This document shows, in pieces, positions 22,177 through 47,283 of a DNA stretch of 57,589 nucleotides. The position numbers and the translations under genes were made by a program. The stretch comes from Chromatiales bacterium (GTDB lineage: Bacteria; Pseudomonadota; Gammaproteobacteria; Chromatiales; Chromatiaceae): positions 1 to 57,589 of the forward strand of contig JANQLO010000057.1 of the NCBI GenBank assembly GCA_028280505.1, in the 5' to 3' direction. How positions within the stretch are numbered: the stretch's first letter is position 1; each line of letters starts with the position of its first letter. Below the pieces are notes generated by a model, which was given only the letters and a program-made list of their open reading frames with translations, was not told the origin of the DNA and did no database searches.

Positions 22177-22542
22177 TCAGGACGAACCGCGTTCTTTGCT
22201 GACCCTTTCGGCGGTCGAGGGATCGAGGTCCCAGAGGCGTTCGAGCTGATAAAAATCCCGCACCCTGGGCCGCATGATATGCACCACGACGCCGTTCAGA
22301 TCGATCAATGCCCATTCACCTTCCTGCAGACCCTCGGTACCGATCGGCGCCTGGCCGGCCTGTTTTGCCTGAAAGGCCACCGAATCGGCCGACGATTTGA
22401 CGTGACGATCGGAACTGCCGGAGGCGATGACGAAAAAATCGGTGATCGCGGTCTTGCCGCGGACATCGAGCGTGACGATGTCGAAGGCCTTCATGTCTTC
22501 GAGGGTGTTGACGACGAGGTCGCGTATTTTTTCTACCTGCAT
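22177..22542 (-). CDS. rsfS: Ribosome silencing factor RsfS
   Basis: 121 residues. Binds L14 on the 50S subunit and blocks subunit joining under nutrient limitation. Conserved core [20 protein letters not shown] and [10 protein letters not shown], then [14 protein letters not shown] and YQLERLWD. It has a short C-terminal extension after the core. It lies 31 bp downstream of nadD, the usual partner. Confidence 0.97.
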
Positions 22543-22573
22543 GCGGTGATCCGGGAATTACATCTACTTAGCA

Positions 22574-23236
22574 TCATAAACCAACTGGCCCGTTCTGCCT
22601 GTCCGGAGAGTGTCCCTCGCTGTTGTACAGCCCATACGCCTTGATCAGCGTCAGTACCGGGTCGGGGACCAGAAAATCGATGCTGCGGCCGGCGCTTATG
22701 CGCCTACGTATGTCGCTGGCGGCGATATCGAGCTGGGTGACGGGAGAAATCACGATCTGGCCACGCCCCGCAGAGAGTTGTTTGACTTCGTGACGCTCAA
22801 GCAGATGCTGCAGTGCGGGATCGGGCGTCCGGACATGTCCAGGACGCTCCAAAATCGCGAGATTCGCCAGGCTCAGAATACCTTCCGGATCGCGCCAGGA
22901 TAAAAAGCCGTTGAAGGCATCACCGCCCAACAGCAGGCACAGATCCCGATCCGGAAATTCGGCACGGACCGAACGCAGCGTATCGATAGTGTAGGAGGGG
23001 CCGTCGCGGTTCAGCTCGCGGTCGTCGACCACGAATTGGGAACGGCCATTGACCGCGGCCTGCAGCATCGCCAGCCGGATTGCCGCAGGCGTTTCCGGCT
23101 GGTCGCGATGCACTGCGTGGGCCAGGGGGATCAGTCGAACCTCGGTGAGATCCAGGGCTTCCACGGCGTCCAGCGCGATGCGCAGATGGCCGTTGTGGAC
23201 CGGGTCGAAGGTGCCGCCGAACAGACCGATTGTCAT
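22574..23236 (-). CDS. nadD: Nicotinate-nucleotide adenylyltransferase
   Basis: 220 residues. Transfers AMP from ATP to nicotinate mononucleotide, giving deamido-NAD and PPi. The nucleotidyltransferase motif GGTFDPVHNGH (7-17) with HxGH is intact. LLLGGDAFNGFLSWRDPE and the C-terminal ASDIRRRISAGRSIDFLVP (the IS(S/A)T(x)IR-like element) match NadD. Followed by rsfS on the same strand. Normally proA lies directly upstream; here a lipoprotein gene intervenes. Confidence 0.97.
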   Translation of the reverse strand: MTIGLFGGTFDPVHNGHLRIALDAVEALDLTEVRLIPLAHAVHRDQPETPAAIRLAMLQAAVNGRSQFVVDDRELNRDGPSYTIDTLRSVRAEFPDRDLCLLLGGDAFNGFLSWRDPEGILSLANLAILERPGHVRTPDPALQHLLERHEVKQLSAGRGQIVISPVTQLDIAASDIRRRISAGRSIDFLVPDPVLTLIKAYGLYNSEGHSPDRQNGPVGL

Positions 23237-23287
23237 TTCACTGGAGAAACAAAAAAACGGTCTTGGATTCGGCGGCGATGGCAGCGG

Positions 23288-23902
23288 TCAGCCTATCTTG
23301 GCAGCGCTGCGTTTTTGCTCCAGGCTTTCGCGGCGTTCGGTGGCCGTGTCCTCTACTTTTTTCCGTTGTTCGTCGCAATGGAATTCATCATCTCCGCACT
23401 GTTGTTCGACTTTTTTCAGTTGAATTTCCGCCTGTTCGTCGAGTTTCGCCAGAATTTTATTGAAGAATTCGTCGCGTTCTTCCACGGTTGCGAATGACTC
23501 CGGGATCAGCACGAGTTCGACCGAAGTTGGATATTTGTTCATTGCACCGCTGCCGGCATCGATGGCGATTCCAATCACACCGCCCAGGATGACATTGCCG
23601 AGAGTGGCGCCCTGAAAATTCGATTCGATCGATTCGATTGTCTCCATGTGTCCCGCGAGGGTGCATTCGATTGAAATCGGGTCTTTGTCTTTATCGACCG
23701 TTACGGTACCAGGGGTACCATTGATTGCCCCAATAGTTTCGTCCTCGCGGACCATCAGACATGTTGCGCCTTCCGGTATTGTGCTTATGGTGATCGATTG
23801 GGTAGAACCGGTAGTTACGGTTGCACATCCCGAAATCAAGCCCGCGGTTGAGGCGAATAGGGCGATGGCAAGCGGCTTAAGGTTGGCATTCCAGCGATAC
23901 AT
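23288..23902 (-). CDS. Lipoprotein with a PEGA-like N-terminal domain, unknown function
   Basis: 204 residues. Signal peptide with lipobox LISGC, so the mature protein starts at Cys26. The next part (QSITISTIPEGATCLM through GTPGTVTVDKD) resembles a PEGA-type beta domain as found in surface and phage-like lipoproteins. A glycine-rich hydrophobic stretch GNVILGGVIGIAIDAG follows, then a charged, probably coiled-coil C-terminus with a Cys pair. AAGGAA lies nine bases before ATG. It sits between proA and nadD, normally neighbours, so it was inserted there or is lineage-specific. Probably at the outer membrane. Family not named with confidence. Confidence 0.8.
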   Translation of the reverse strand: MYRWNANLKPLAIALFASTAGLISGCATVTTGSTQSITISTIPEGATCLMVREDETIGAINGTPGTVTVDKDKDPISIECTLAGHMETIESIESNFQGATLGNVILGGVIGIAIDAGSGAMNKYPTSVELVLIPESFATVEERDEFFNKILAKLDEQAEIQLKKVEQQCGDDEFHCDEQRKKVEDTATERRESLEQKRSAAKIG

Positions 23903-23959
23903 CGTTGTTTTTTCCTTAAAAAATGTGGAGAAGGAAGGTCCGCTGGAGATGTTAATGGG

Positions 23960-25243
23960 TTAGGTTCTAATATGCCCATCGCCAAACACGATGAACTTGA
24001 CCGAGGTCAGCCCTTCGAGGCCGACCGGGCCCCGGGCGTGGAATTTGTCGGTCGAGATGCCGATCTCGGCGCCCAGGCCGTATTCGAAGCCGTCGGCGAA
24101 GCGGGTGGACGCGTTGATCATGACCGAGCTGGAGTCGACCTCGCACAGGAAGCGGCGGGCCTTGGTGAAATTCTCGGTGACGATGCTGTCGGTGTGTTGC
24201 GAGCTATGGCGGGCGATGTGGTCGACCGCCTGGTCGATGTCGTCCACCACCCGGACCGACAATACGGGGGCCAGGTACTCGGTGTCCCAGTCCTCGTCGG
24301 TCGCCGGTTTGCAGTCGGCCAGGATAGCGCGAGTCTTCGCGCAACCGCGCAGTTCCACGCCTTTTTCCGCATAAGCCGCGGCAAGGCCGGGCAGGAAGTC
24401 GCCGGCAATGGTGTCGTGCACCAGCAACGTTTCCAGGGTGTTGCAGGTGCCGTAGCGCTGGGTTTTGGCGTTTAGTGCAACATCGAAGGCTTTCTGCGGA
24501 TCGGCTTCGTCGTCGACATAGACGTGGCAGATACCGTCCAGATGCTTGATCACCGGTACCCGGGCGTCGCGGCTGATGCGTTCGATCAGGCCCTTGCCGC
24601 CGCGTGGGATGATCACGTCGATGTAGTCGGGCATGGCGATCATGCTGCCGACCGCGGCGCGGTCTGTCGTGGCCAGTACCTGTACCGCATCGGCCGGCAG
24701 ACCGGCCTGCTCCAGGCCGCGATGGATGCATGCCGCGATCGCCTGATTCGAATGGAAGGCCTCCGAGCCGCCGCGCAGTACCGCGGCGTTGCCCGATTTC
24801 AGACACAGGGCTGCGGCATCCGCGGTGACGTTGGGGCGCGATTCGTAGATGATCCCGACGACCCCGAGCGGCACGCGCATGCGACCGACCTGGATACCGC
24901 TCGGACGATAGTTCATGTCGAAGACCTCGCCGATCGGATCCGGCAGCGCGGCGATCTGGCGCAGCCCCTCGATCATACCGTCGATTCGTCCCGAAGTGAG
25001 TGCCAGCCGGTCGAGCAGCGCGGCGTCGAGGCCTTTCGCGGCGCCGGCGTCCAGATCCTTGCGGTTTTCGGCCATCAAGGTATCGCGGGTACGGTCGAGT
25101 TCGTCGCCGATCGCATGCAGCGCGGCATTCTTGGCGCTCGTGTCGGCTGCGGCCAGCAGGCGCGCGGCGGCGCGCGCACGGCGTCCGAGGTCGTGCATAT
25201 AGGCGTCGACGTCGTCGATCGGCAATGGGGCGGCTTGGCTCAT
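23960..25243 (-). CDS. proA: Gamma-glutamyl phosphate reductase
   Basis: 427 residues from ATG at 25243 (AGGG eight bases upstream); the frame is open 12 codons earlier without support. Second step of proline synthesis: NADPH-dependent reduction of gamma-glutamyl phosphate to the semialdehyde. The aldehyde-dehydrogenase-fold markers are present: [36 protein letters not shown], the catalytic Cys in RYGTCNTLE and the C-terminal [20 protein letters not shown]. Length normal (E. coli 417). proB is not in the window. Confidence 0.98.
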
Positions 25244-25317
25244 GGCGTTACCCTGTCGGAATCCTTGAGGAAACCGCAAATTCTAGCGTAAACGGCCTTA
25301 TCGGTGGCCCCAAGCGA

Positions 25318-26109
25318 TCAGCTGCCCGGCGCGACGACCGGTTGCGGCGTGGCCATCTGGGCCTGTTGCTGTTCGGGCTCTTCCCAGGAGAATTTCGGGA
25401 GGTTGCGGAAGGCATCCTGGATACCGTTGTTCCAGGCCTCACGCAGTCCGATCAGGTAGGGGTCGTTGGCGTCGAAACGACAGCGTACGCCAAGCGATAG
25501 ACTGTCGCGTTCGTAGGTGACCAACTCGAACGGCGGGCCGACCGTGATGTTCGAGCGTGTGGTGGCGTCGAGCGAAACCAGCGTCAGTCGTGCGCCCTGG
25601 TTGAGCGACAACCCGGGGTGCACGATCCGGTCGAGTGCCGGTTTGCCGTATTTGCTTTCGCCGATTTGCAAATACGGCGTTTCGGGAGACGAGGTGATGT
25701 AGTTGCCCTGGGGATAGATCATCATCAGGCCATGCGGCTGGCCGGCGATCTGGCCCCCGATCAGCAACGTGGTCTGACCGCTGACGCCGGACTGCGCGAG
25801 TGCGCTGCTGTGTTCTTTCTGCACCCCCAGGCTGACGGCACCCACATATTCCGCGGCCTCGAACAAATAGCGTACATTGGCCAGGTTGGGGCCGCCGGAC
25901 GGATAGTCGAGATCGCGCTGAATGTGGTTGATGACTTCCTGCGTGGTGGCCAGGTTACCGGCGGACAGGATCACGAACAGCCGGTCGGGCGACGGCGTGA
26001 ACACATGCATTTTGCTGTAGGTGGTCACATAGTCGACCCCGGCGTTGGTTCGCGAGTCCGACGCGAAGACAAGGCCGTCTTCGAGACTGAGTCCTACACA
26101 ATAGGTCAT
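25318..26109 (-). CDS. Anbu: bacterial proteasome-like Ntn-hydrolase protease
   Basis: 263 residues. Begins MTYCVGL; removal of Met would expose the Thr nucleophile. In mature numbering Thr1, Asp17 (in FASDSRTNAG) and Lys32 form the proteasome-type catalytic set. Length and the start fit Anbu (ancestral beta-subunit), not HslV (about 175 aa) or the actinobacterial beta-subunit. Anbu forms open helical or ring assemblies without a known ATPase. The last 20 or so residues (EEPEQQQAQ, Pro/Ala/Val) are low-complexity. It is divergent, across 151 bp, from transglutaminase-DUF2126, ATP-grasp and alpha-E genes, the combination described by comparative genomics as a peptide-ligase/protease system. 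Substrate unknown. Confidence 0.93.
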   Translation of the reverse strand: MTYCVGLSLEDGLVFASDSRTNAGVDYVTTYSKMHVFTPSPDRLFVILSAGNLATTQEVINHIQRDLDYPSGGPNLANVRYLFEAAEYVGAVSLGVQKEHSSALAQSGVSGQTTLLIGGQIAGQPHGLMMIYPQGNYITSSPETPYLQIGESKYGKPALDRIVHPGLSLNQGARLTLVSLDATTRSNITVGPPFELVTYERDSLSLGVRCRFDANDPYLIGLREAWNNGIQDAFRNLPKFSWEEPEQQQAQMATPQPVVAPGS

Positions 26110-26260
26110 AGTTTGAGCACCTGGGGTCGGCGTGATGGGCTAAAAGTATCGGATGAAAACCTACCCGTTTGGAAGGCCTTTTTAACCCCTATTTTTTGGC
26201 GGGCGAATTCGGGCACCATACTTGCTTTGAATTCGAACATCGTTTTACCGAGGTAGCACC
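26110..26260. promoter_or_regulatory. Divergent control region of the Anbu island
   Basis: 151 bp between Anbu (minus) and the transglutaminase gene (plus), with an AT-rich centre. Two copies of gaattcg (26205-26211 and 26229-26235) lie 24 bp apart, close to two helical turns; each is built on the palindrome gaattc. They could bind a dimeric regulator, but no clear -35/-10 pair is seen. GAGGTAG precedes the ATG at 26261. Confidence 0.35.
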
Positions 26261-29200
26261 ATGTCCATCCGTGTGGCCATTCGCCACAAGACCGAATATC
26301 GGTTCGACCGCAGCGTTTCGCTGTCGCCGCATCAAATCCGTCTGCGCCCCGCGCCCCATGCCCGCACGCCGGTCCACCAATATTCGCTCAAGGTCGAGCC
26401 GGCGGAGCATTTTCTCAATTGGCAACAGGACCCTTTCGGCAATTTCGTTGCCCGCTACGTGTTCCCGGAAAAGACCCGGAAGATGGTCATCGATGTCGGC
26501 CTGGTGGTCGAGATGGTCACCATCAATCCTTTCGATTTCTTCGTCGAGGAATATGCCGAGCATTTCCCGTTCGACTACCCCAAACAGCTGCACAAGGAAC
26601 TCAAGCCCTATTTCGAATGCACCGAGTCGGGTCCGCGATTGCTCGCATGGCTGGGCGAGGTATCGGGCGACGGCGAACAGATCGTCGATTTCCTGGTGGC
26701 GCTCAACCAGCGTCTGCAACAGGACATCGGTTATGTCATCCGTATGGAACCCGGGGTGCAGACCTGCGAAGAGACGCTCGAAGTGGGTAAGGGCTCGTGT
26801 CGCGACAGTGCCTGGTTATTGGTTCAGATACTGCGTCATCTCGGCTTGGCGGCGCGTTTCGTATCGGGCTATCTGGTGCAGTTGGCGCCGGACCAGGAGT
26901 CGCTCGACGGGCCTTCCGGCCCGGCCGAGGATTTTACCGACCTGCATGCCTGGGCCGAGGTGTTCGTGCCCGGCGCGGGCTGGATCGGCCTCGACCCGAC
27001 TTCGGGCCTGTTCGCCGGTGAGGGCCATATTCCGTTGGCCTGCACGCCGGACTATGTGAGTGCCGCGGCGGTAATGGGTGCGGTCGATAAAAGCGAGGTC
27101 GAGTTCGCGTTCGTCAACCAGGTCACCCGTATCCACGAGGACCCGCGCGTCACCCTGCCGTATACCGAGCGGCAATGGGCCGAGGTCATGGCCCTGGGCG
27201 AGCGGGTCGACGCGGAACTGTCGGCGAACGATGTCCGGCTGACCATGGGCGGCGAGCCGACCTTCGTGTCGATCGACGACATGGACGGCGCCGAATGGAA
27301 CACCGCTGCGCTCGGCGCGCGCAAACGCGAGCGTGCCGAGATATTGCTGCGTCGGCTATGGGGGCGCTTCGCCGATGGTGGCGTACTGCATCATGGTCAG
27401 GGCAAGTGGTATCCGGGCGAGCCATTGCCGCGCTGGGCACTGTCCTGTCTTTGGCGTGACGATGGTCATGCGATCTGGCGCGATCCCATGCTTCTGACCG
27501 ATCCGACCAAGCCCGGTCGGGCAGACGCCGATGTTGCGCGGGCCTTTGCCCGCCGCTTGGCCGCACGCCTTGGGATACCCGCAGACCATGTCGAGGCCGG
27601 TTTCGAAGACGTGCTGTATTACCTCTGGAAAGAGGGCACGCTGCCGGAGAATGTCGACGTACTCGACAGTAAGCTGGAAGATAAGCTCGAACGCGCACGT
27701 CTCAGGCGATTGTTCGAGCGCGGCTTGGATCAGACCGTCGGCTATGCGCTGCCCTTGGGTTGGGATCACGATACCGAGGCCTGGGTGAGCTCACCCTGGA
27801 CCTTCCGTCGCGACCACATGTTCTTATTGCCCGGTGACTCGCCCATGGGGCTGCGCCTGCCTTTGGATGCGTTGATCTGGGAAAAGCCGGAGCTACGCCA
27901 AGCCCTGCATCCGACCGATCCCTTCGCCCCACGTGAGGCCTTGCCGGGTGAAGAGGACGATGCGCGTTTCGGTCATGGTGCGGGCGATGTCTCCGAGCGT
28001 TACAGTCTTTACCAAGAAGGTGTTCCCGAAGACGATTTGCGCGCCACGCGATTGAGCGAACAAGGGCTGGCCGATGCTGAACACGAAGGCCGCTTCTTTG
28101 TCCGCACGGCTATGTCTTTCGAGCCGCGCGACGGCAATCTACATGTTTTTCTGCCGCCCTTGGGCGACGTCGCGCATTGGCTCGATCTGGTACGCGGCAT
28201 CGAAGATACCGCGCGTGAACTGGGTCAGCCGGTCGTGCTCGAAGGCTACCCGGCACCCCAGGACCCTCGCCTCAAACGCCTGTCGGTTACCCCGGACCCG
28301 GGCGTGATCGAGGTGAACATCCATCCCGCACAGGATTGGTGGAGCCTGGTAACCAATACCGAGATCCTGTACGAAGAGGCCCGCTTATCCCGCTTGGGTA
28401 CCGAGAAGTTCATGTTGGACGGACGACATACCGGCACCGGCGGCGGCAACCATGTCACCCTCGGTGGGCCAAGCCCGGCCGACAGTCCCATCCTGCGACA
28501 ACCACAGGTGCTGGGTAGCTTGCTTCGGTATTGGCAGAATCATCCGGCGCTGTCCTATTTGTTCTCGGGCATGTTCATCGGCCCGACCTCGCAGGCACCG
28601 CGGGTCGACGAGGCCCGCGACGACAGCCTGTACGAACTGGCCATTGCGCTGCAACAGCTGCCGTCAGGCGAGACGCCGGCACCCTGGGCGGTCGATCGGG
28701 CGTTGCGCAATCTGTTGGTCGACATGACCGGCAACACGCATCGTGCCGAGTTTTGTATCGACAAGCTGTATTCGCCCGATTCGGCCAGCGGGCGACTCGG
28801 CCTGGTCGAGTTCCGCGGTTTCGAGATGCCGCCGCATGCGCGCATGTCCATGGTGCAGAATCTGCTGTTGCGTTCGTTGGTCTCGCGCTTTTGGCAGCAG
28901 CCCTATACCCAGGAGCCGGTGTCTTGGGGTACCGAACTGCACGACCGCTTCATGTTGCCGCATTACGTGCAAGGCGACATGGGGGATGTCATCGCCGATC
29001 TCCAGCGTTGGGGTTACCCGGTCGATCCGGCCTGGTTCGATCCCTTCGTCGAGTTTCGCTTTCCTCGCTACGGCACCATCAATGTCGGCGACATCGAACT
29101 GGAGCTGCGTTTCGCCATCGAGCCCTGGCATGTCTTGGGCGAGGAGGTCACCGCGCAGGGTACCGCGCGCTTCGTCGACTCCTCGGTCGAGCGTCTTCAG

Positions 29201-29617
29201 GTCAAGGTGCGTGGCATGACCGATACGCGCCATGTTGTGGCATGCAACGGTCGTAATGTGCCATTGCGGTGCACCGGCGAGCGGGGCGAGTTCGTCGCCG
29301 GGGTGCGCTACAAGGCCTGGAATCCGCCGTCGGGGCTCCATCCCACCATCCCGGTGCATGCGCCGCTGGTATTCGATATCGTCGATCGCTGGGCCGAGCG
29401 TTCGCTCGGCGGCTGCACCTACCATGTCGCGCACCCGGGCGGGCGCAATTACGAAACGCTGCCGGTGAATGCCTACGAGGCCGAGTCGCGTCGCTTGGCG
29501 CGTTTCTGGCCCGTCGGGCACAGCAGTGGGTCGGTCGAGGTGCTCGCCGAGACGCCGTCGTGTGATCATCCCCATACCCTCGACCTGCGATACGCCAAGC
29601 CGGCGCAGACCGATTGA
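26261..29617 (+). CDS. Transglutaminase-like protein with C-terminal DUF2126 domain
   Basis: 1118 residues. An N-terminal beta domain (1-about 120) leads to a transglutaminase/protease fold with Cys180 (GKGSCRDSAW), His229 (DLHAWAEVF) and Asp245 (WIGLDPTSG), a full catalytic triad. The large remainder (about 320-1118) is DUF2126; VIEVNIHPAQDWWSLV and HTGTGGGNHVTLGG look like the active-site strands of glutamine-synthetase-fold carboxylate-amine ligases, as proposed for this family (from memory). The protein may thus both cut or transfer and form amide bonds. No signal peptide: cytosolic. First gene of a three-gene run; the next start is 7 bases past its stop. Biochemical role unknown. Confidence 0.93.
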   Translation: MSIRVAIRHKTEYRFDRSVSLSPHQIRLRPAPHARTPVHQYSLKVEPAEHFLNWQQDPFGNFVARYVFPEKTRKMVIDVGLVVEMVTINPFDFFVEEYAEHFPFDYPKQLHKELKPYFECTESGPRLLAWLGEVSGDGEQIVDFLVALNQRLQQDIGYVIRMEPGVQTCEETLEVGKGSCRDSAWLLVQILRHLGLAARFVSGYLVQLAPDQESLDGPSGPAEDFTDLHAWAEVFVPGAGWIGLDPTSGLFAGEGHIPLACTPDYVSAAAVMGAVDKSEVEFAFVNQVTRIHEDPRVTLPYTERQWAEVMALGERVDAELSANDVRLTMGGEPTFVSIDDMDGAEWNTAALGARKRERAEILLRRLWGRFADGGVLHHGQGKWYPGEPLPRWALSCLWRDDGHAIWRDPMLLTDPTKPGRADADVARAFARRLAARLGIPADHVEAGFEDVLYYLWKEGTLPENVDVLDSKLEDKLERARLRRLFERGLDQTVGYALPLGWDHDTEAWVSSPWTFRRDHMFLLPGDSPMGLRLPLDALIWEKPELRQALHPTDPFAPREALPGEEDDARFGHGAGDVSERYSLYQEGVPEDDLRATRLSEQGLADAEHEGRFFVRTAMSFEPRDGNLHVFLPPLGDVAHWLDLVRGIEDTARELGQPVVLEGYPAPQDPRLKRLSVTPDPGVIEVNIHPAQDWWSLVTNTEILYEEARLSRLGTEKFMLDGRHTGTGGGNHVTLGGPSPADSPILRQPQVLGSLLRYWQNHPALSYLFSGMFIGPTSQAPRVDEARDDSLYELAIALQQLPSGETPAPWAVDRALRNLLVDMTGNTHRAEFCIDKLYSPDSASGRLGLVEFRGFEMPPHARMSMVQNLLLRSLVSRFWQQPYTQEPVSWGTELHDRFMLPHYVQGDMGDVIADLQRWGYPVDPAWFDPFVEFRFPRYGTINVGDIELELRFAIEPWHVLGEEVTAQGTARFVDSSVERLQVKVRGMTDTRHVVACNGRNVPLRCTGERGEFVAGVRYKAWNPPSGLHPTIPVHAPLVFDIVDRWAERSLGGCTYHVAHPGGRNYETLPVNAYEAESRRLARFWPVGHSSGSVEVLAETPSCDHPHTLDLRYAKPAQTD

Positions 29618-29624
29618 TGCCGCC

Positions 29625-31076
29625 ATGCCGATAGATCTCAAACACTACGACCCGGGCCCTTTCTTCGACGAGATGATGGCGAGCAAGAATCGCGCTCGAC
29701 CGCTGGCAAAGGAGTTGATCGGTCTGTTTCGGCGAATGAATGACGGTGCCCTGGCCGCGCGCCAGGCCTCGGCCGAGTTGGCGATCAAGGAGATGGGCAT
29801 CACCTTTACGGTGTACAACGAAGACGACGGCATGATCGATCGCAACTGGCCGTTCGATATCGTGCCGCGGATCATCGACAAACAGGAATGGGATCGTATT
29901 GAGCAGGGGCTGAAGCAGCGGGTTCGGGCGCTGAACCTGTTCATTAACGATCTTTACCATGAGCAGAAGATCGTCAAGGACGGTGTCTTCCCGGCCGAGG
30001 TGCTCGCGGAGTCGAAGAATTTCCGACCGCAATGTGTCGGGGTCAAGCCGCCGCTCGGTGTCTGGGCGCATATCTGCGGTTCGGACCTGGTGCGTGACGC
30101 CGACGGCGCCATGTATGTGCTCGAAGACAACCTGCGAGTGCCGTCCGGCGTGTCTTATATGCTTGAGAATCGTTTGGTGACCAAGCGGGTCTTTCCCGAA
30201 CTGTTCGAGACTTATGCGCCGTTGCCCGTCGGCGACTACTCCATCCAGCTCTATGAGCTTTTGGCCGCGTTGTCGTCGCATAGCGTGCGTCGCCCGAGTG
30301 TCGTCGTACTCACGCCGGGTATCTACAATTCGGCCTATTTCGAACATGCCTATCTGGCGATGGAGATGGGCGCCGAGTTGGTCGAGGGGCGCGACCTGTT
30401 CGTCGACAAGCACGATATGGTTTATATGCGCACGGTTTCGGGGGCGCGCAAGGTCGACGTGATTTATCGCCGAATCGACGATGAATTCATGGACCCCGAG
30501 GTGTTTCGCGAAGATTCCGCGCTCGGCGTGCCCGGGCTGATGCGTGCTTGGAAGGTCGGTAACGTCGGGTTGGCGAACGCACCGGGTGCCGGGGTGGCCG
30601 ACGACAAGGTGGTCTACGCTTTCGTGCCCGACATCATTCGTTACTATCTCGACGAAGCGCCGGGGATTCCCAATGTGCCGACCTATCGCTGTATGTATCC
30701 CGAGGAACGCAAATACGTGCTGGCACACCTGGATGAGTTGGTGGTGAAGCCGGCGAACGAATCCGGCGGCTACGGCATGTTGATCGGTCCGCGTGCGACC
30801 AAGGCCGAGCGCAAGACTTTTGCCGGACTCATTCGGCGTAACCCGCGTAACTATATTGCTCAACCGACGCTCGGTATCTCGACCGTACCGACCGTGGTCG
30901 GGCAGACTCTGGAGCCGCGGCATGTCGATCTGCGCCCCTTTATTCTCAGCGGGCGCAAAACCACGGTGACCACCGGTGGGTTGACCCGGGTCGCGTTGCG
31001 CAAGGGTTCGCTGGTGGTCAACTCGTCGCAGGGCGGCGGTTCGAAAGACACCTGGATCGTGGACAGCGGAAACTGA
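29625..31076 (+). CDS. Circularly permuted ATP-grasp ligase (DUF404/DUF407 type)
   Basis: 483 residues from ATG at 29625; the longer open frame upstream overlaps the preceding gene. Family markers: VYNEDDGMIDRNWPFDIVPR, VLEDNLRVPSGVSYMLENR, VDVIYRRIDDEFMDP, LVVKPANESGGYGMLIGP (ATP-grasp Lys and Gly-rich loop) and a C-terminal VDLRPFILSGRK with VNSSQGGGSKDTWI. ATP-grasp ligases activate a carboxylate as acyl-phosphate and join it to an amine. This permuted family is predicted to make or attach small peptides. It is sandwiched between the transglutaminase-DUF2126 and alpha-E genes with spacings of 7 and 38 bp, so a shared pathway is likely. Confidence 0.94.
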   Translation: MPIDLKHYDPGPFFDEMMASKNRARPLAKELIGLFRRMNDGALAARQASAELAIKEMGITFTVYNEDDGMIDRNWPFDIVPRIIDKQEWDRIEQGLKQRVRALNLFINDLYHEQKIVKDGVFPAEVLAESKNFRPQCVGVKPPLGVWAHICGSDLVRDADGAMYVLEDNLRVPSGVSYMLENRLVTKRVFPELFETYAPLPVGDYSIQLYELLAALSSHSVRRPSVVVLTPGIYNSAYFEHAYLAMEMGAELVEGRDLFVDKHDMVYMRTVSGARKVDVIYRRIDDEFMDPEVFREDSALGVPGLMRAWKVGNVGLANAPGAGVADDKVVYAFVPDIIRYYLDEAPGIPNVPTYRCMYPEERKYVLAHLDELVVKPANESGGYGMLIGPRATKAERKTFAGLIRRNPRNYIAQPTLGISTVPTVVGQTLEPRHVDLRPFILSGRKTTVTTGGLTRVALRKGSLVVNSSQGGGSKDTWIVDSGN

Positions 31077-31114
31077 TCCGATGCAACGGTGTTTCTTTTA
31101 AAGAGGTGGCTGGC

Positions 31115-32065
31115 ATGCTGTCACGCGTCGCAGAAAACATCTATTGGCTGGCCCGGTATGTCGAACGGGCCGAGAACACCGCGCGCCTGATTCGGGTGAA
31201 TTCCCATTTGGTATTGGACACCCCGCGCGGTATTACGCCGGGCTGGTTGCCTCTGGTCGAGATCACCGGTTTGCATAATGCGTTTTATGCGGTCGAGCGT
31301 GAGCCCAACGAACGCAACATTGTACGTTTCCTGATTGGTGATCCGAACAACCCGGGTTCGATTCTGTGTTCCCTGGCGGCGGCGCGCGAAAACTGTCGTA
31401 CCGTTCGCGAAGTGCTGCCGCGCACGGCGTGGGAGGCGCTCAACGAGCTTTATCTGTTTGCCAAGGAAAACATCGCGTCGGGCCTGACCAAAGGGGGACG
31501 TGACGATTTTCTCGAACACATCGTAACGGGTTCGCAGGGCATTACCGGTTTGTTCGGTTCGGTGATGTACCGCGATGTGGCGTGGCAGTTCTCGCGCGTC
31601 GGTCGTAATCTCGAACGCGCCGATATGACCACGCGTATCATCGACGTGCGTTCGACCGATTTGTTTCCGGACGATCTACTGGAATCGCGCTCGCTCGATA
31701 CGTTGCAATGGATCAGCGTATTGCGTTCGTTGTCCGGCTACCAGGCGTATCGTCGACACGTCGCTATCCGGGTTGGTCGTGGCGACGTGTTGAACTTCCT
31801 CTTCCACGATGCTGCTTTTCCGCGTTCGGTCATGCATTGCGTTCATGCGGTCGAGGAAAGTCTCGGTGAACTGGAAAACACCGACGCCGCGATGCGCAGT
31901 GCTCGCGCGCTCGCACGCAAGTTAAAAACCACCAAAATGGCAGAACTCGACCAAGTGTCGTTGCATGAGTTCATCGACGAGTTGCAGATCGCCATCATGA
32001 AGCTGCATGGCGATATCGCCAAGGCCTATTTCCCTCCGCCGGTTGTGTTGGAACAGAGTGCCTGA
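31115..32065 (+). CDS. Alpha-E domain protein (DUF403)
   Basis: 316 residues from ATG at 31115, with AAGAGGTG eight bases upstream; a GTG three codons earlier is less likely because it lies inside that ribosome site. All-helical protein. Start MLSRVAENIYWLARYVERAE and the repeat-like GSVMYRDVAWQFSRVGRNLE with RADMTTRIIDVR are diagnostic of alpha-E, with conserved Glu/Arg/Asp pairs facing a putative active cleft. It always travels with the permuted ATP-grasp gene, often fused to it. Function is unknown; a helper or second catalytic subunit in peptide bond formation is proposed. Last gene of the run; no clear terminator follows. Confidence 0.93.
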   Translation: MLSRVAENIYWLARYVERAENTARLIRVNSHLVLDTPRGITPGWLPLVEITGLHNAFYAVEREPNERNIVRFLIGDPNNPGSILCSLAAARENCRTVREVLPRTAWEALNELYLFAKENIASGLTKGGRDDFLEHIVTGSQGITGLFGSVMYRDVAWQFSRVGRNLERADMTTRIIDVRSTDLFPDDLLESRSLDTLQWISVLRSLSGYQAYRRHVAIRVGRGDVLNFLFHDAAFPRSVMHCVHAVEESLGELENTDAAMRSARALARKLKTTKMAELDQVSLHEFIDELQIAIMKLHGDIAKAYFPPPVVLEQSA

Positions 32066-32206
32066 ACCCCCTGTTTGGGATCGCTTTGATCGAATTGGCG
32101 CGGCATTGATGTGTCTTTGTTAGCCATCTCGTTGTGCGGTTGGAAGCGGTCGACTACTTGATTAAAATCGACCGTCTTGTTTTCTTGCATGGGTTTGATG
32201 TTTTTC

Positions 32207-32713
32207 ATGCAGCTGAAAGAAATAGATAAGGGCAGATACAGAAAGAATTTCAGGCTGGTTTTTGCCGGTATTATCGTAGCGTTGACGGTTGTTGCTCTTG
32301 GCTCGTCGACACTCGTGATTCAATTCTTCGGCACGCCCGGCGAATCGCATTTCTGGTTCAACTTGGCGGGCGTGGTTTTCGCGGCAATTGTTGTCGTATT
32401 CATGCTGACGAAACTGCGCGACCACCCGTTCATGCGGGAGGTGGTTTACGTCTGGGATTTGAAACAACAGCTAAATCGCATTTATCGGAAACAAAACAAG
32501 ATCGAGCCGCTTGTCGAGGATGACGACCGTGATGCGATGATCGTCATGAATTACTTCTATCGCGGTTCCAAACAGCTTTATGAACTGGACGATAACACCA
32601 TTACGATGGATACGCTGGGCATCAAACTTCGTGCGCTTGAAAAAAGGATGGAAGGCTTGGGGATGAATGCATCGACCGACACTTATCACCCCGATATGTT
32701 GGAACGATTTTAG
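32207..32713 (+). CDS. DUF3087-family membrane protein
   Basis: 168 residues from ATG at 32207 (start MQLKEIDKGRYRKNF); the open frame begins at a TTG ten codons earlier. Two transmembrane helices (about 17-39 and 50-72) with a short loop, then a cytosolic helical domain DLKQQLNRIYRKQNKIEPLV and a C-terminal ALEKRMEGLG helix. This matches the uncharacterised DUF3087 family of gammaproteobacteria. It is monocistronic and convergent with holA across a 105-bp gap. The 141 bp upstream, after the alpha-E gene, are AT-rich and may hold its promoter. Confidence 0.75.
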   Translation: MQLKEIDKGRYRKNFRLVFAGIIVALTVVALGSSTLVIQFFGTPGESHFWFNLAGVVFAAIVVVFMLTKLRDHPFMREVVYVWDLKQQLNRIYRKQNKIEPLVEDDDRDAMIVMNYFYRGSKQLYELDDNTITMDTLGIKLRALEKRMEGLGMNASTDTYHPDMLERF

Positions 32714-32818: not shown

Positions 32819-33835
32819 TCAGGTCGTTAACGGACGGCCGCTCATCGTTAACGTAATGCGTTCCAACAGCAGCCAGGGCGATGCTGCACCGACGCCTTTG
32901 ATCGCACCGTCGGCTTGCTGACACTGGTCGAGAAGCGTCAGCCACTGTGGCGTGTGTAACCTGCCCATCCCCTGACGCACCAGTGCTATGCGTTTGCTGA
33001 ATACCCTGGCGCGGCTGATCGCGTGATCGGGACTGAGGCCTTTGGCGACATCGGCCGAGATTTGCGCCATGTTGCGCACCTCGCGGTGCAGTGCCCACAG
33101 CACGACCGGCGGTGCGACACCTTCGCCTCGCAGCCCGGTGAGTATTTGCACGCAGCGATCCGCTTCGCCGCGTAAGGCACTGTCGATCAGCTCGAAAACG
33201 TCATAACGTGCGCTGTCGCTGACAGCCGCGGCGAGTTGTTCGGCGTCGAGTGGCCCGGGACCGTGAAGCAACAGCAGCTTTTCGATTTCCTGCCGTGCCG
33301 CCAAGAGATTGCCCTCGACCCTGTCGGCCAGCATGGCGGCAGCTTCCCGGCTTGGTTGTATGCCAACCCGCTTTAGTCGGTTTTCGATCCAACCCGGTAA
33401 GCGCCGCGGTTCAATCGGCCACACTTGAAGAATAGCGCCCAGTTTGTCCAACACTTTGAACCATTTGGCGTTCTGTTGTTGGCGATCGAGTTTCGGCAGT
33501 GTGAGTAGCAGCAGAGTATCGGATGGCGGATTCGCGCAATAGTCGACCAGGGCGCGACTGCCATCGGCGCCCGGTTTCCCGCTGGGGATGCGCAGGTCGA
33601 TAATCTTTTTTTCGGCAAACAGCGAAAAGGCTGCGGCTTCGGCGTAGAGTTGTTGCCAGTCGAAACCCGTGCCGACCTCAAATATTACGCGGGTGCTGTG
33701 TCCGGTCTCTCGTGCGGCATGCCGAATGGCGTCGCAGCACTCGCCCAGCTGCAAAGGCTCGTCGCCGCTGACGAGATAGGCCGGAGCCAAATGGCTACCG
33801 AGCTGTTCGCGTAGCTTGTCTGGCTGAATACGCAC
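32819..33835 (-). CDS. holA: DNA polymerase III delta subunit
   Basis: 338 residues (E. coli 343), starting with GTG at 33835, nine bases past the lptE stop. Clamp-loader subunit that opens the beta clamp. N-terminal PAYLVSGDEPLQLGECCDAI is the family mark, followed by the AAA+-like fold and a helical collar domain (RRLPGWIENRLKRVGIQPSR). The order leuS-lptE-holA is conserved in gammaproteobacteria; nadD, which follows in E. coli, is elsewhere in this window. Confidence 0.96.
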   Translation of the reverse strand: MRIQPDKLREQLGSHLAPAYLVSGDEPLQLGECCDAIRHAARETGHSTRVIFEVGTGFDWQQLYAEAAAFSLFAEKKIIDLRIPSGKPGADGSRALVDYCANPPSDTLLLLTLPKLDRQQQNAKWFKVLDKLGAILQVWPIEPRRLPGWIENRLKRVGIQPSREAAAMLADRVEGNLLAARQEIEKLLLLHGPGPLDAEQLAAAVSDSARYDVFELIDSALRGEADRCVQILTGLRGEGVAPPVVLWALHREVRNMAQISADVAKGLSPDHAISRARVFSKRIALVRQGMGRLHTPQWLTLLDQCQQADGAIKGVGAASPWLLLERITLTMSGRPLTT

Positions 33836-33844
33836 TGAAAAAGT

Positions 33845-34363
33845 TTAGCGGAGCGTGGCGAGTCGATTGGTGATGCGCTGAGCGATCTCTGCGCGCATAG
33901 CATCTCGCAGAAGTTCCGCTTCGCGACCGCTGCCGAGAATGCCTTCGGGTGGGCTGAACGAGATACGCAACGTACGAATTTGTTGTGGTGCTATGAGTTC
34001 TCTGCCAGCGCGGTCGTAAACGGCCATCCGAACCGTTTCTTCGAGCTCATACTCGATTGCCCTATTGAGGCTATCGAGCGACAGTAAGCGCGTCTCGGCC
34101 TTATGATCGCTGATCCGTAACAGTAACGCGCTGTCCCGTGCGGATTTTGCCAATGCGATACCGCTACGCTGTAATTGTTTGCGTAGCTCACGATGTATAT
34201 CGGAGTGGCGTTCGATACCGCTGATAAATAGCGGGGAGGGCAGACTGCTGAGGTCGATCGTGGCGCCGCGAGGCTGGAAGCCGCAGGCGGACAAAGTCAG
34301 CAACAGGATTAGCAATATGCTGCGGCTGATGTATTGGTGCAAAGTCGTGGGTCGTCTTGTCAT
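33845..34363 (-). CDS. lptE: LPS-assembly lipoprotein LptE
   Basis: 172 residues. Signal peptide with lipobox LSAC (mature Cys27), then GFQPRG, the classic LptE start. It plugs the LptD barrel in the outer membrane to form the LPS insertion machine. The C-terminal helix (GREAELLRDAMRAEIAQRI) fits. It starts 11 bases downstream of the leuS stop and precedes holA. The remaining Lpt genes in this window are lptA, lptB and lptC near 48 kb. Confidence 0.95.
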   Translation of the reverse strand: MTRRPTTLHQYISRSILLILLLTLSACGFQPRGATIDLSSLPSPLFISGIERHSDIHRELRKQLQRSGIALAKSARDSALLLRISDHKAETRLLSLDSLNRAIEYELEETVRMAVYDRAGRELIAPQQIRTLRISFSPPEGILGSGREAELLRDAMRAEIAQRITNRLATLR

Positions 34364-34373
34364 GGATGTGTTG

Positions 34374-37073
<2,700 letters not shown>

Positions 37074-45792: not shown

Positions 45793-47283
45793 TTATGCCA
45801 AGCGCTTGCGTTCGTTCGACGGCGGAATGGCCATCGATTCGCGGTATTTGGCGACGGTCCGGCGGGCGACGTTGATTCCCTGGTCCGCCAGTATCGCCGC
45901 AATCTTGTTGTCGGATAAAGGCTTGTTTGGTTTTTCCGCACCGATCAGCTTTTTGATCAAGGCCCGGATCGCGGTCGCCGAGGCCTCGCCGCCGCTCGCG
46001 GTGCTGACGTGGCTGGAAAAAAAGTATTTGAATTCATAAGTACCGCGTGGGGTGTGCATGTATTTCTGCGTGGTGACCCGGGATATGGTCGATTCGTGCA
46101 TCTCCAATGCTTCGGCGATGTCGCGCAACACCAGCGGCTTCATGGCTTCTTCGCCGTAGTCGAAGAAGTTGCGCTGAACGTCGACGATCCGGGTTGCCAC
46201 CCGCAGCAGGGTATCGTTGCGACTCTGCAGGCTTTTGATGAACCAACGTGCTTCCTGCAAGTGGTTCTTCATAGTGACATTGTCGGCGCTGTTGTCGGCC
46301 CGGCGGATCATGCCGGCGTATTCGGCATTGACCCGCAGACGCGGCGCCGCATCGGGGTTGAGCTCGACACGCCATTGATTGTTGCGCTTATAGACGAAGA
46401 CGTCGGGTTCAATATAGCTCGGCGCCTCCTGTGCGACGCTGGTGCCGGGACGCGGATTGAGCGAGCGGATCAACCCTATCACGGCCATCACGTCGTCGCT
46501 GTCGAGCTTGAGCTTGCGTCGCATTTGCGTTTCGTCCTGCTGTGCGAGCAAGTCGAAATGCGTATCGACCAGTTGAATCGCCTGTTCGCGCCAATCGAAA
46601 TCCGCCGGTAGCTGGCGCAGTTGGATCAGCAGGCATTCGCGCAGGTCACGGGCAGCGATCCCCGCAGGATCGAAGGCCTGGATGCGGTGCAATACCGCCT
46701 CGACCTCTTCGATTTCGACATCGGGATCGTCCATGGCCGTGACGACGTCTTCCAGCGGCGTGGTCAAATAGCCGTCTTCGCTGATGCCGTCGATGATCGC
46801 CTCGGCGATGGCGAGGTCGGTCGGGCTGAAAGGTGTCAGCTGCATCTGCCAGATCAGGTGGTCCTGCAAAGATTCGCCGCTGCTTTGTTGGCTGAGAAAA
46901 TCCTGGCCGTCATCGCTCGGTGCCGGGGCGGTGCCGCTGCTCGGGGTGACGCTATCGTAAATATCGTCCCAGACGGTGTCGACCGGTAGCTCGTCCGGCA
47001 TCGATTCGGCCTCGATCTTGATCTCGCTTTCGTTGTTGGGATCGTTCGTCCCGTTGGCGTTCGTCTCCTGGCCGTTGAAATCCTCGCTCTTGTTTTTGTC
47101 GTTGGCGGTGTCGTCTCGGCGTACACCTTCTTCTTCGGTCTCGAGCATTAAATTGGACTCGAGCGCCTCCTGGATCTCCTGTTTGAGGTCGAGCGTCGAC
47201 AACTGCAACAGCTTGATTGCCTGCTGCAGCTGGGGGGTCATGGTCAGGTGTTGGCCCAGTCGAAGCTGGATCGTGGGCTTCAT
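45793..47283 (-). CDS. rpoN: RNA polymerase sigma-54 factor
   Basis: 496 residues. N-terminal activator-interacting region with Gln/Leu repeats ([20 protein letters not shown]), an acidic region II (about 50-115), the core-binding domain, a helix-turn-helix and the RpoN box [11 protein letters not shown] near the C-terminus, which reads the -24 element. Needs AAA+ enhancer-binding proteins, none of which lie here. The 152 bp upstream, before lptB, contain the hairpin tcacgcg/cgcgtga (47388-47408) but no obvious promoter. Confidence 0.98.

Follow-up and report, generated by a model that had tools for sequence, protein, structure and literature searches.

We analyzed a 57,589-nucleotide stretch of DNA from a Chromatiales bacterium (contig JANQLO010000057.1, positions 1 to 57,589; hereafter the window) and describe a locus in which the gene for Anbu, a proteasome-like N-terminal nucleophile (Ntn) hydrolase, is divergent from a tight plus-strand operon (26261-32065) encoding, in this order, a transglutaminase-like (TGL) domain fused to DUF2126, a circularly permuted ATP-grasp ligase and an alpha-E protein (Table 1). 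The locus is real, known in kind and a compact variant: the four-family operon has already been published, and what differs here is the DUF2126 fusion, the gene order and the presence of one copy of every part. The most useful results concern which partner is near-obligatory and which is optional. Across genomes, the pairing of Anbu with alpha-E is near-obligate, and TGL and DUF2126 are dispensable. We tentatively favor, at somewhat less than an even chance, a nitrogen-responsive operon of amide "writers" with Anbu as the "eraser".

The four families, their order and the divergence of Anbu, all part of the original prediction, were borne out by the open reading frames (ORFs) and by Pfam profile searches. 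Anbu, presumably the same as COG3484, matched the Pfam family Proteasome (PF00227) at 24.3 bits (cut-off 22.4), and all five of its matches to solved structures at E ≤ 0.001 are Anbu-group entries, not HslV or 20S (5loy, 5lox, 5nyw, 5nyj and 5nyf; E 1e-74 to 2e-55). The claim that its active site is intact held up on alignment: Thr1 (after the start Met), Asp17 and Lys32 are present in the window protein and in 225, 226 and 226 of 226 aligned Anbu ORFs, respectively, with a single Ser1. The 26261-29617 protein matched Bact_transglu_N, Transglut_core and DUF2126 (1330 bits). Its Cys180-His229-Asp245 triad, likewise predicted to be intact, is conserved in 143, 141 and 144 of 144 transglutaminase domains and in all 36 of those fused to DUF2126; both residue alignments include some loci that share a genome.

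The ATP-grasp protein belongs to CP_ATPgrasp_2 (547 bits), and has a solved relative in 3n6x (E 2.6e-163), a putative glutathionylspermidine synthase structure. The alpha-E protein (Pfam, 307 bits) was modeled from 43 sequences as all-helical, with a mean predicted local distance difference test score (pLDDT) of 91.7 and a predicted template modeling score of 0.90; no solved structure matched its sequence at an E-value below 0.26. No NCBIfam model scored above its cut-off for the five proteins tested. Furthermore, the window genome (99.98% complete, 4.65 Mb) contains one match each for Anbu, DUF2126, alpha-E, CP_ATPgrasp_2 and Bact_transglu_N, and all five sit at this locus, so the set is complete in one place, as predicted, and also single-copy genome-wide. 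Paralogues would therefore not mask single deletions. The congener G042 carries the same locus but has three further genes for Bact_transglu_N, and an additional, divergent DUF2126 gene was picked up there as two matches.

An operon of ATP-grasp, alpha-E, transglutaminase and Anbu is described in PMC6376114 and PMC5666114, which credit Iyer et al. 2009 and Valas & Bourne 2008 (here and below, PMC sources are cited for the accessible parts of their text). The window shares with it the presence and adjacency of the four families and the Anbu active-site residues, but differs in that Anbu is divergent and the transglutaminase comes first, fused to DUF2126. Gene order thus rules out reading the window as the canonical operon, which lowers "canonical operon", not "same system". 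The word DUF2126 was not found in the open literature searched; subscription papers, including Iyer et al. 2009, may describe the link. The Burkholderia cenocepacia cluster I35_5080-83 resembles the window in its ATP-grasp, alpha-E, TGL and large TGL proteins and is sigma-54/NtrC dependent, but the accessible text names no Anbu in the cluster (PMC5491218). We infer that its large TGL protein carries DUF2126. A compact, complete version such as the one in the window could help to find the product of the enzymes linked to Anbu, a proteasome relative with negative peptidase tests (PMC6376114).

Partners of Anbu across genomes

We surveyed 398 genomes of the phylum, with statistics that ignore relatedness, and found Anbu in 145, alpha-E in 212 and DUF2126 in 120. 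Of the 145 Anbu genomes, 142 also carry alpha-E (odds ratio about 124, p about 2e-49), as do all 120 with DUF2126. By contrast, Anbu genomes with DUF2126 (76/145) and without it (69/145) are similarly common, and among genomes that have alpha-E the two are independent (odds ratio 0.68, p 0.24, relatedness ignored), so that co-dependence of Anbu and DUF2126 was rejected. Within the family (57 genomes), all 16 Anbu genomes have alpha-E, as do 18 of the 19 with DUF2126; in the exception, G038, DUF2126 consists of two short pieces with an internal stop.

The transglutaminase is optional as well. Among 26 selected Anbu genomes, eight lack a Bact_transglu_N match, all eight of them with alpha-E, and G242 has a match below the cut-off only. 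ATP-grasp and alpha-E adjoin Anbu in six of the eight (G003, G010, G158, G344, G340 and G087; G138 and G252 were left out of the ATP-grasp test), and the smallest partnered set is therefore Anbu, ATP-grasp and alpha-E. The original prediction had proposed a four-part system and named relatives that routinely retain Anbu but lack the other three genes as the case against it. Such relatives are frequent with respect to DUF2126 and Bact_transglu_N, which rules out an obligate four-part system, and rare with respect to alpha-E (3 of 145); its view of the locus as one functional unit is supported. The survey points to ATP-grasp and alpha-E, not the transglutaminase, as the partner to test with Anbu, and to nitrogen limitation as the condition for doing so.

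Copy number of alpha-E differs between genomes with and without DUF2126. Of the 66 genomes that have Anbu but lack DUF2126, 65 carry exactly one copy; two or more copies are present in 71 of 76 genomes with both and 39 of 44 with DUF2126 only; where neither is present, 15 genomes have one alpha-E and 11 have two. With its single alpha-E, the window genome belongs to the five of the 76 that depart from this pattern.

Gene order was compared in three sets of loci. In the family set (19 Anbu loci and one region taken for DUF2126 only), Anbu is divergent from ATP-grasp/alpha-E in seven, arranged otherwise in three and alone in six, three of these near contig ends; two loci (L101 and L113) have the order of the window, and in L103 the contig ends after the transglutaminase. 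The phylum set covers 120 of 146 Anbu places, the window itself being one further place. Here the published order ATP-grasp, alpha-E, TGL, Anbu accounts for 75/120 loci, TGL-DUF2126 lies within the cluster in 15/120, and Anbu has no partner in the linked stretch in 20/120; in one of these loci (L201) the partners lie just beyond the stretch, and 17 of the 20 genomes have alpha-E elsewhere. Among the best 80 of at least 587 named loci, which overlap with the family set, TGL-DUF2126 is within the cluster in 15 and Anbu is alone in 31, some at contig ends. The order of the window is found in L222, L225 (Candidatus Thiodiazotropha endoloripes), L232 (Methylomicrobium sp. RS1) and L234, and with an extra TGL in L233. 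Because the same order recurs in relatives, the arrangement is not due to chance. Of note, one cluster (L221) holds two Anbu genes, and in another (L286) one Anbu is flanked by two ATP-grasp/alpha-E pairs.

Trees were built by a quick method, with support from the Shimodaira-Hasegawa-like approximate likelihood ratio test (SH-aLRT) only. The TGL-DUF2126 tree had 47 rows; 13 named duplicates or fragments were dropped, as was every ORF that was shorter than 700 amino acids or had no TGL. In it the window protein groups with its congener (SH-aLRT 99) within a set of 10 rows (100), nine of which adjoin Anbu together with a standalone ATP-grasp; rows labeled as not near Anbu mostly had flanks of just 1.5 kb. 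The ATP-grasp tree (thinned at 82% identity from 201 rows to 94) places the window protein in a 16-row set (SH-aLRT 96), 11 of these with a divergent Anbu. Fused ATP-grasp-alpha-E proteins also exist and form one side of a branch (nine rows, SH-aLRT 100); the window ATP-grasp is at most 39% identical to them and 70-84% identical to the nearest relatives listed. In the lineage of the window, TGL-DUF2126 may have the Anbu-type pair as its partner instead of the fused pair that accompanies it elsewhere. In clusters such as L086, L090 and L093 the same TGL-DUF2126 family adjoins Anbu, but a fused ATP-grasp-alpha-E is encoded separately and alpha-E occurs a second time; the single ATP-grasp/alpha-E pair of the window is standalone and of the Anbu-adjacent type.

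These three are among nine super-clusters (L086, L088, L090, L091, L093, L096, L098, L100 and L130) that hold TGL-DUF2126, Anbu and fused ATP-grasp-alpha-E as well as a small TGL and a further alpha-E/ATP-grasp pair that stands alone. A divergent DUF2126 type (L041-L044 and G323; ORFs of about 715-810 amino acids, 34-38% identity) has no fused transglutaminase; of the four loci L041-L044, three have a divergent TGL gene in the vicinity.

Sigma-54-like sites and nitrogen control

The divergent intergenic region contains a sigma-54-like -24/-12 site. For scoring we used TGGCACN5TTGCW, which we take to be the sigma-54 consensus. The site is the only place in the window with at most one mismatch and both GG and GC; two further one-mismatch places lack GG, and weaker sites are not in excess (33 found, 29 expected). 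The site was not found in the congener L002, and for that reason the evidence for sigma-54 at this one locus is moderate. No sigma-70 site was found in a scan of the divergent region. RpoN is encoded inside the window (45793-47283), and NtrC, above its NCBIfam cut-off, elsewhere in the genome.

Across relatives the signal is more extensive. Requiring at most one mismatch and intact GG and GC, we found sites upstream of 35/165 ligase operons (the window included) versus 6/1952 other genes of the same loci, and 0/165 on the reverse strand; with up to two mismatches the counts were 52/165, 83/1952 and 11/165. After removal of similar promoters 26/141 ligase operons retained a site (controls unthinned). 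Sites are found in 31/118 operons that begin with ATP-grasp and lack a divergent Anbu, in 1/25 of those with one, in 0/10 with a fused ATP-grasp-alpha-E and divergent Anbu, in neither of two other single cases, and in 3/10 that begin with TGL-DUF2126, the window among them. Upstream of Anbu itself there are 0/48 where it is divergent, 0/85 where it is in the operon and 3/85 where it is alone. Because most sites lie where Anbu is not divergent, and often in the same operon, one-sided control, as suggested below for the window, is not a general rule. NtrC palindromes with at most two mismatches were weakly enriched (7/35 site-positive and 13/113 site-negative operons, 30/800 sampled controls), and at up to four mismatches the sets did not differ.

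The enrichment of sigma-54-like sites fits published nitrogen control of the family; that control is not new, and our analysis adds how far the promoter signal extends. In wild-type Pseudomonas putida, PP_2686-2688 rise 12.6-, 11.0- and 14.7-fold under nitrogen limitation (PMC7801951 Table 2), where PP_2685 (Anbu) changes only 1.12-fold. Anbu itself is induced in two other P. putida studies: PP_2685 and PP_2688 (ATP-grasp) are more highly expressed on nitrate than on ammonium (log2 4.4 and 4.0; PMC8050072), and PP2685-2687 rise 7-11-fold under nitrogen limitation (PMC3325844). The B. cenocepacia genes I35_5080-83 (DUF404/407, DUF403, TGL and large TGL protein) are 6-9-fold lower in an ntrC mutant (PMC5491218), and COG3484 appears in a sigma-54 regulon study (PMC12316311). 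The accessible text of two nitrogen transcriptome papers (PMC5748707, PMC2820453) does not mention genes of the system, that of PMC10274813 names just a different transglutaminase homolog, hvyA, and that of PMC13207237 lists one ATP-grasp gene of unspecified type with a site.

Possible mechanisms

Beyond family chemistry, the mechanism is a matter of inference. ATP-grasp and alpha-E would activate a carboxylate with ATP to make an amide-linked peptide, metabolite or protein tag. The TGL-DUF2126 fusion may add a second, optional pair of activities: DUF2126 would act as an amidoligase of the glutamine synthetase type, and the transglutaminase domain, through its Cys-His-Asp triad, as a transferase or isopeptidase. 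The divergently transcribed Anbu, as an Ntn amide hydrolase, would trim or remove the product. For DUF2126, the Pfam label is putative amidoligase, and 11 of the 50 Foldseek matches listed for its model are glutamine synthetases or gamma-glutamylmethylamide synthetase (rank 1, 1lgr, E 0.62), a pattern that may agree with an amidoligase but is no proof of one. Compared by sequence with solved structures, DUF2126 gave only two weak partial matches (E 0.02).

Several observations weigh against the writer-eraser interpretation. The DUF2126 model is of low confidence (pLDDT 65.7, 15 sequences), and none of its 238 Foldseek matches reached E ≤ 0.001, the best glutamine synthetase being at E 0.62. 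At up to one mismatch, 130/165 ligase operons have no sigma-54-like site, as is the case upstream of the congener operon; only 3/42 with a divergent Anbu have one, and 10 of the 28 coded loci with a site, which span 11 family codes, belong to family f49. Upstream in the window there is no good NtrC palindrome, only a three-mismatch match far upstream. In an rpoN mutant of P. putida PP_2686-2688 were induced too, 14.2-, 16.0- and 19.6-fold (PMC7801951 Table 2), which argues against strict sigma-54 dependence in that organism. Tests of Yersinia bercovieri Anbu showed neither peptidase nor amidase activity, no specific complex between it and other products of its operon, and no stimulation of the ATP-grasp enzyme (PMC6376114); no substrate or product is on record for the system. 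Finally, G150, G358 and G449, from one genus, keep Anbu with Thr1, Asp17 and Lys32 intact and have no match for alpha-E, DUF2126, CP_ATPgrasp_2 or Bact_transglu_N.

A more specific version, which we consider doubtful, is a minimal amide write/erase cycle in which two different amidoligases and the transglutaminase share the single alpha-E and Anbu is a product hydrolase, not a proteasome. Nitrogen shortage would act through sigma-54 to switch on synthesis and not the divergent Anbu, so that the product accumulates and is later removed; since Anbu is divergent here, synthesis could be switched without the eraser. Both this cycle and the broader writer-eraser interpretation are weakened because most site-bearing relatives lack a divergent Anbu, because Anbu was co-induced in two studies and because induction persisted in the rpoN mutant.

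Published proposals include tagging, deubiquitinase-like removal, degradation of tagged proteins and nitrogen-starvation proteolysis (PMC6376114), and another group held protein degradation to be likelier than peptide synthesis (PMC5666114). That Anbu is a general protease for protein turnover in nitrogen shortage, with ligases that aid degradation or glutamine/ammonia balance, seems to us unlikely but worth serious attention. Its ring-like open assembly and its binding of proteasome inhibitors have been argued as evidence (PMC5666114), and induction under nitrogen limitation (PMC7801951, PMC8050072, PMC3325844) would suit it. However, Anbu of Yersinia, Hyphomicrobium and Pseudomonas left three aminomethylcoumarin (AMC) substrates of the 20S peptidase uncut (PMC6376114), no AAA+ partner is known according to the accessible text of PMC5666114, and alpha-E in 142/145 Anbu genomes would be odd for a free-standing protease. 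The relation of the ATP-grasp protein to 3n6x would suit a pure small-molecule pathway, in which a peptide-like metabolite is made by ATP-grasp, DUF2126 and TGL with no protein tagging and Anbu is a maturation amidase or even a ligase. Connectase, of the same family as Anbu, is a proteasome-like ligase (PMC8665760), and in marine metagenomes urea-metabolism domains show a correlation with DUF403/404/407 and Bact_transglu_N (PMC3597751), but no metabolite is reported in the accessible literature and Pfam reveals no transporter among the genes of the island; we regard this pathway as rather improbable.

It is very unlikely that the genes are neighbors by chance or hitch-hiking and that Anbu works alone. 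The genus with intact Anbu and no partner, and the Anbu genes without linked partners in the phylum and named sets (some of them at contig ends), fit this explanation, but most such phylum genomes have alpha-E elsewhere, the Anbu/alpha-E association across the 398 genomes is strong even if uncorrected for relatedness, and adjacency recurs in many different gene orders. The orphan Anbu loci L134, L142 and L144, from three species of one genus, offer a natural test of Anbu alone. Among eight proteins tested next to two orphan Anbu genes, nothing replaces the ligases; the neighbors are histidine kinases, a short-chain dehydrogenase, methyltransferases and two proteins without a family.

Genomic setting of the locus

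Table 1. Features of the Anbu locus, in window coordinates (aa, amino acids; bp, base pairs).
Feature	Position	Strand	Evidence
Anbu, proteasome-like Ntn-hydrolase, 263 aa	25318..26109	-	Pfam, PDB relatives, Thr1/Asp17/Lys32, single copy
Divergent intergenic region, 151 bp	26110..26260		
Sigma-54-like -24/-12 site GGGCACCATACTTGCT	26211..26226	+	One mismatch to TGGCACN5TTGCW; 34 bp before the TGL-DUF2126 ATG
Transglutaminase-like domain (Cys180-His229-Asp245) fused to DUF2126 putative amidoligase, 1118 aa	26261..29617	+	Pfam, triad, tree
Circularly permuted ATP-grasp ligase CP_ATPgrasp_2, 483 aa from ATG 29625	29625..31076	+	Pfam, 3n6x
Alpha-E helical protein, 319 aa from GTG 31106	31106..32065	+	Pfam, all-helical model
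DUF3087 gene downstream of alpha-E	32177..32713	+	Pfam

The listed start of the ATP-grasp ORF (29469) falls within the preceding gene, and the likely start is the ATG 8 bp past the stop of the TGL-DUF2126 gene. For alpha-E, an alternative ATG is located at 31115. The DUF3087 gene, which has no match in the congener locus L101, is probably outside the system. Base composition was considered as a sign of a foreign island; the island bins have a guanine-cytosine fraction of 0.585-0.643 versus 0.536-0.598 around them, which is slightly higher and not conclusive. The island is flanked by leuS-lptE-holA (22177-25279) on one side and proA-nadD-rsfS (32819-37004) on the other. It probably interrupts a housekeeping cluster, because holA directly adjoins proA in two Nevskia loci (L277 and L283).

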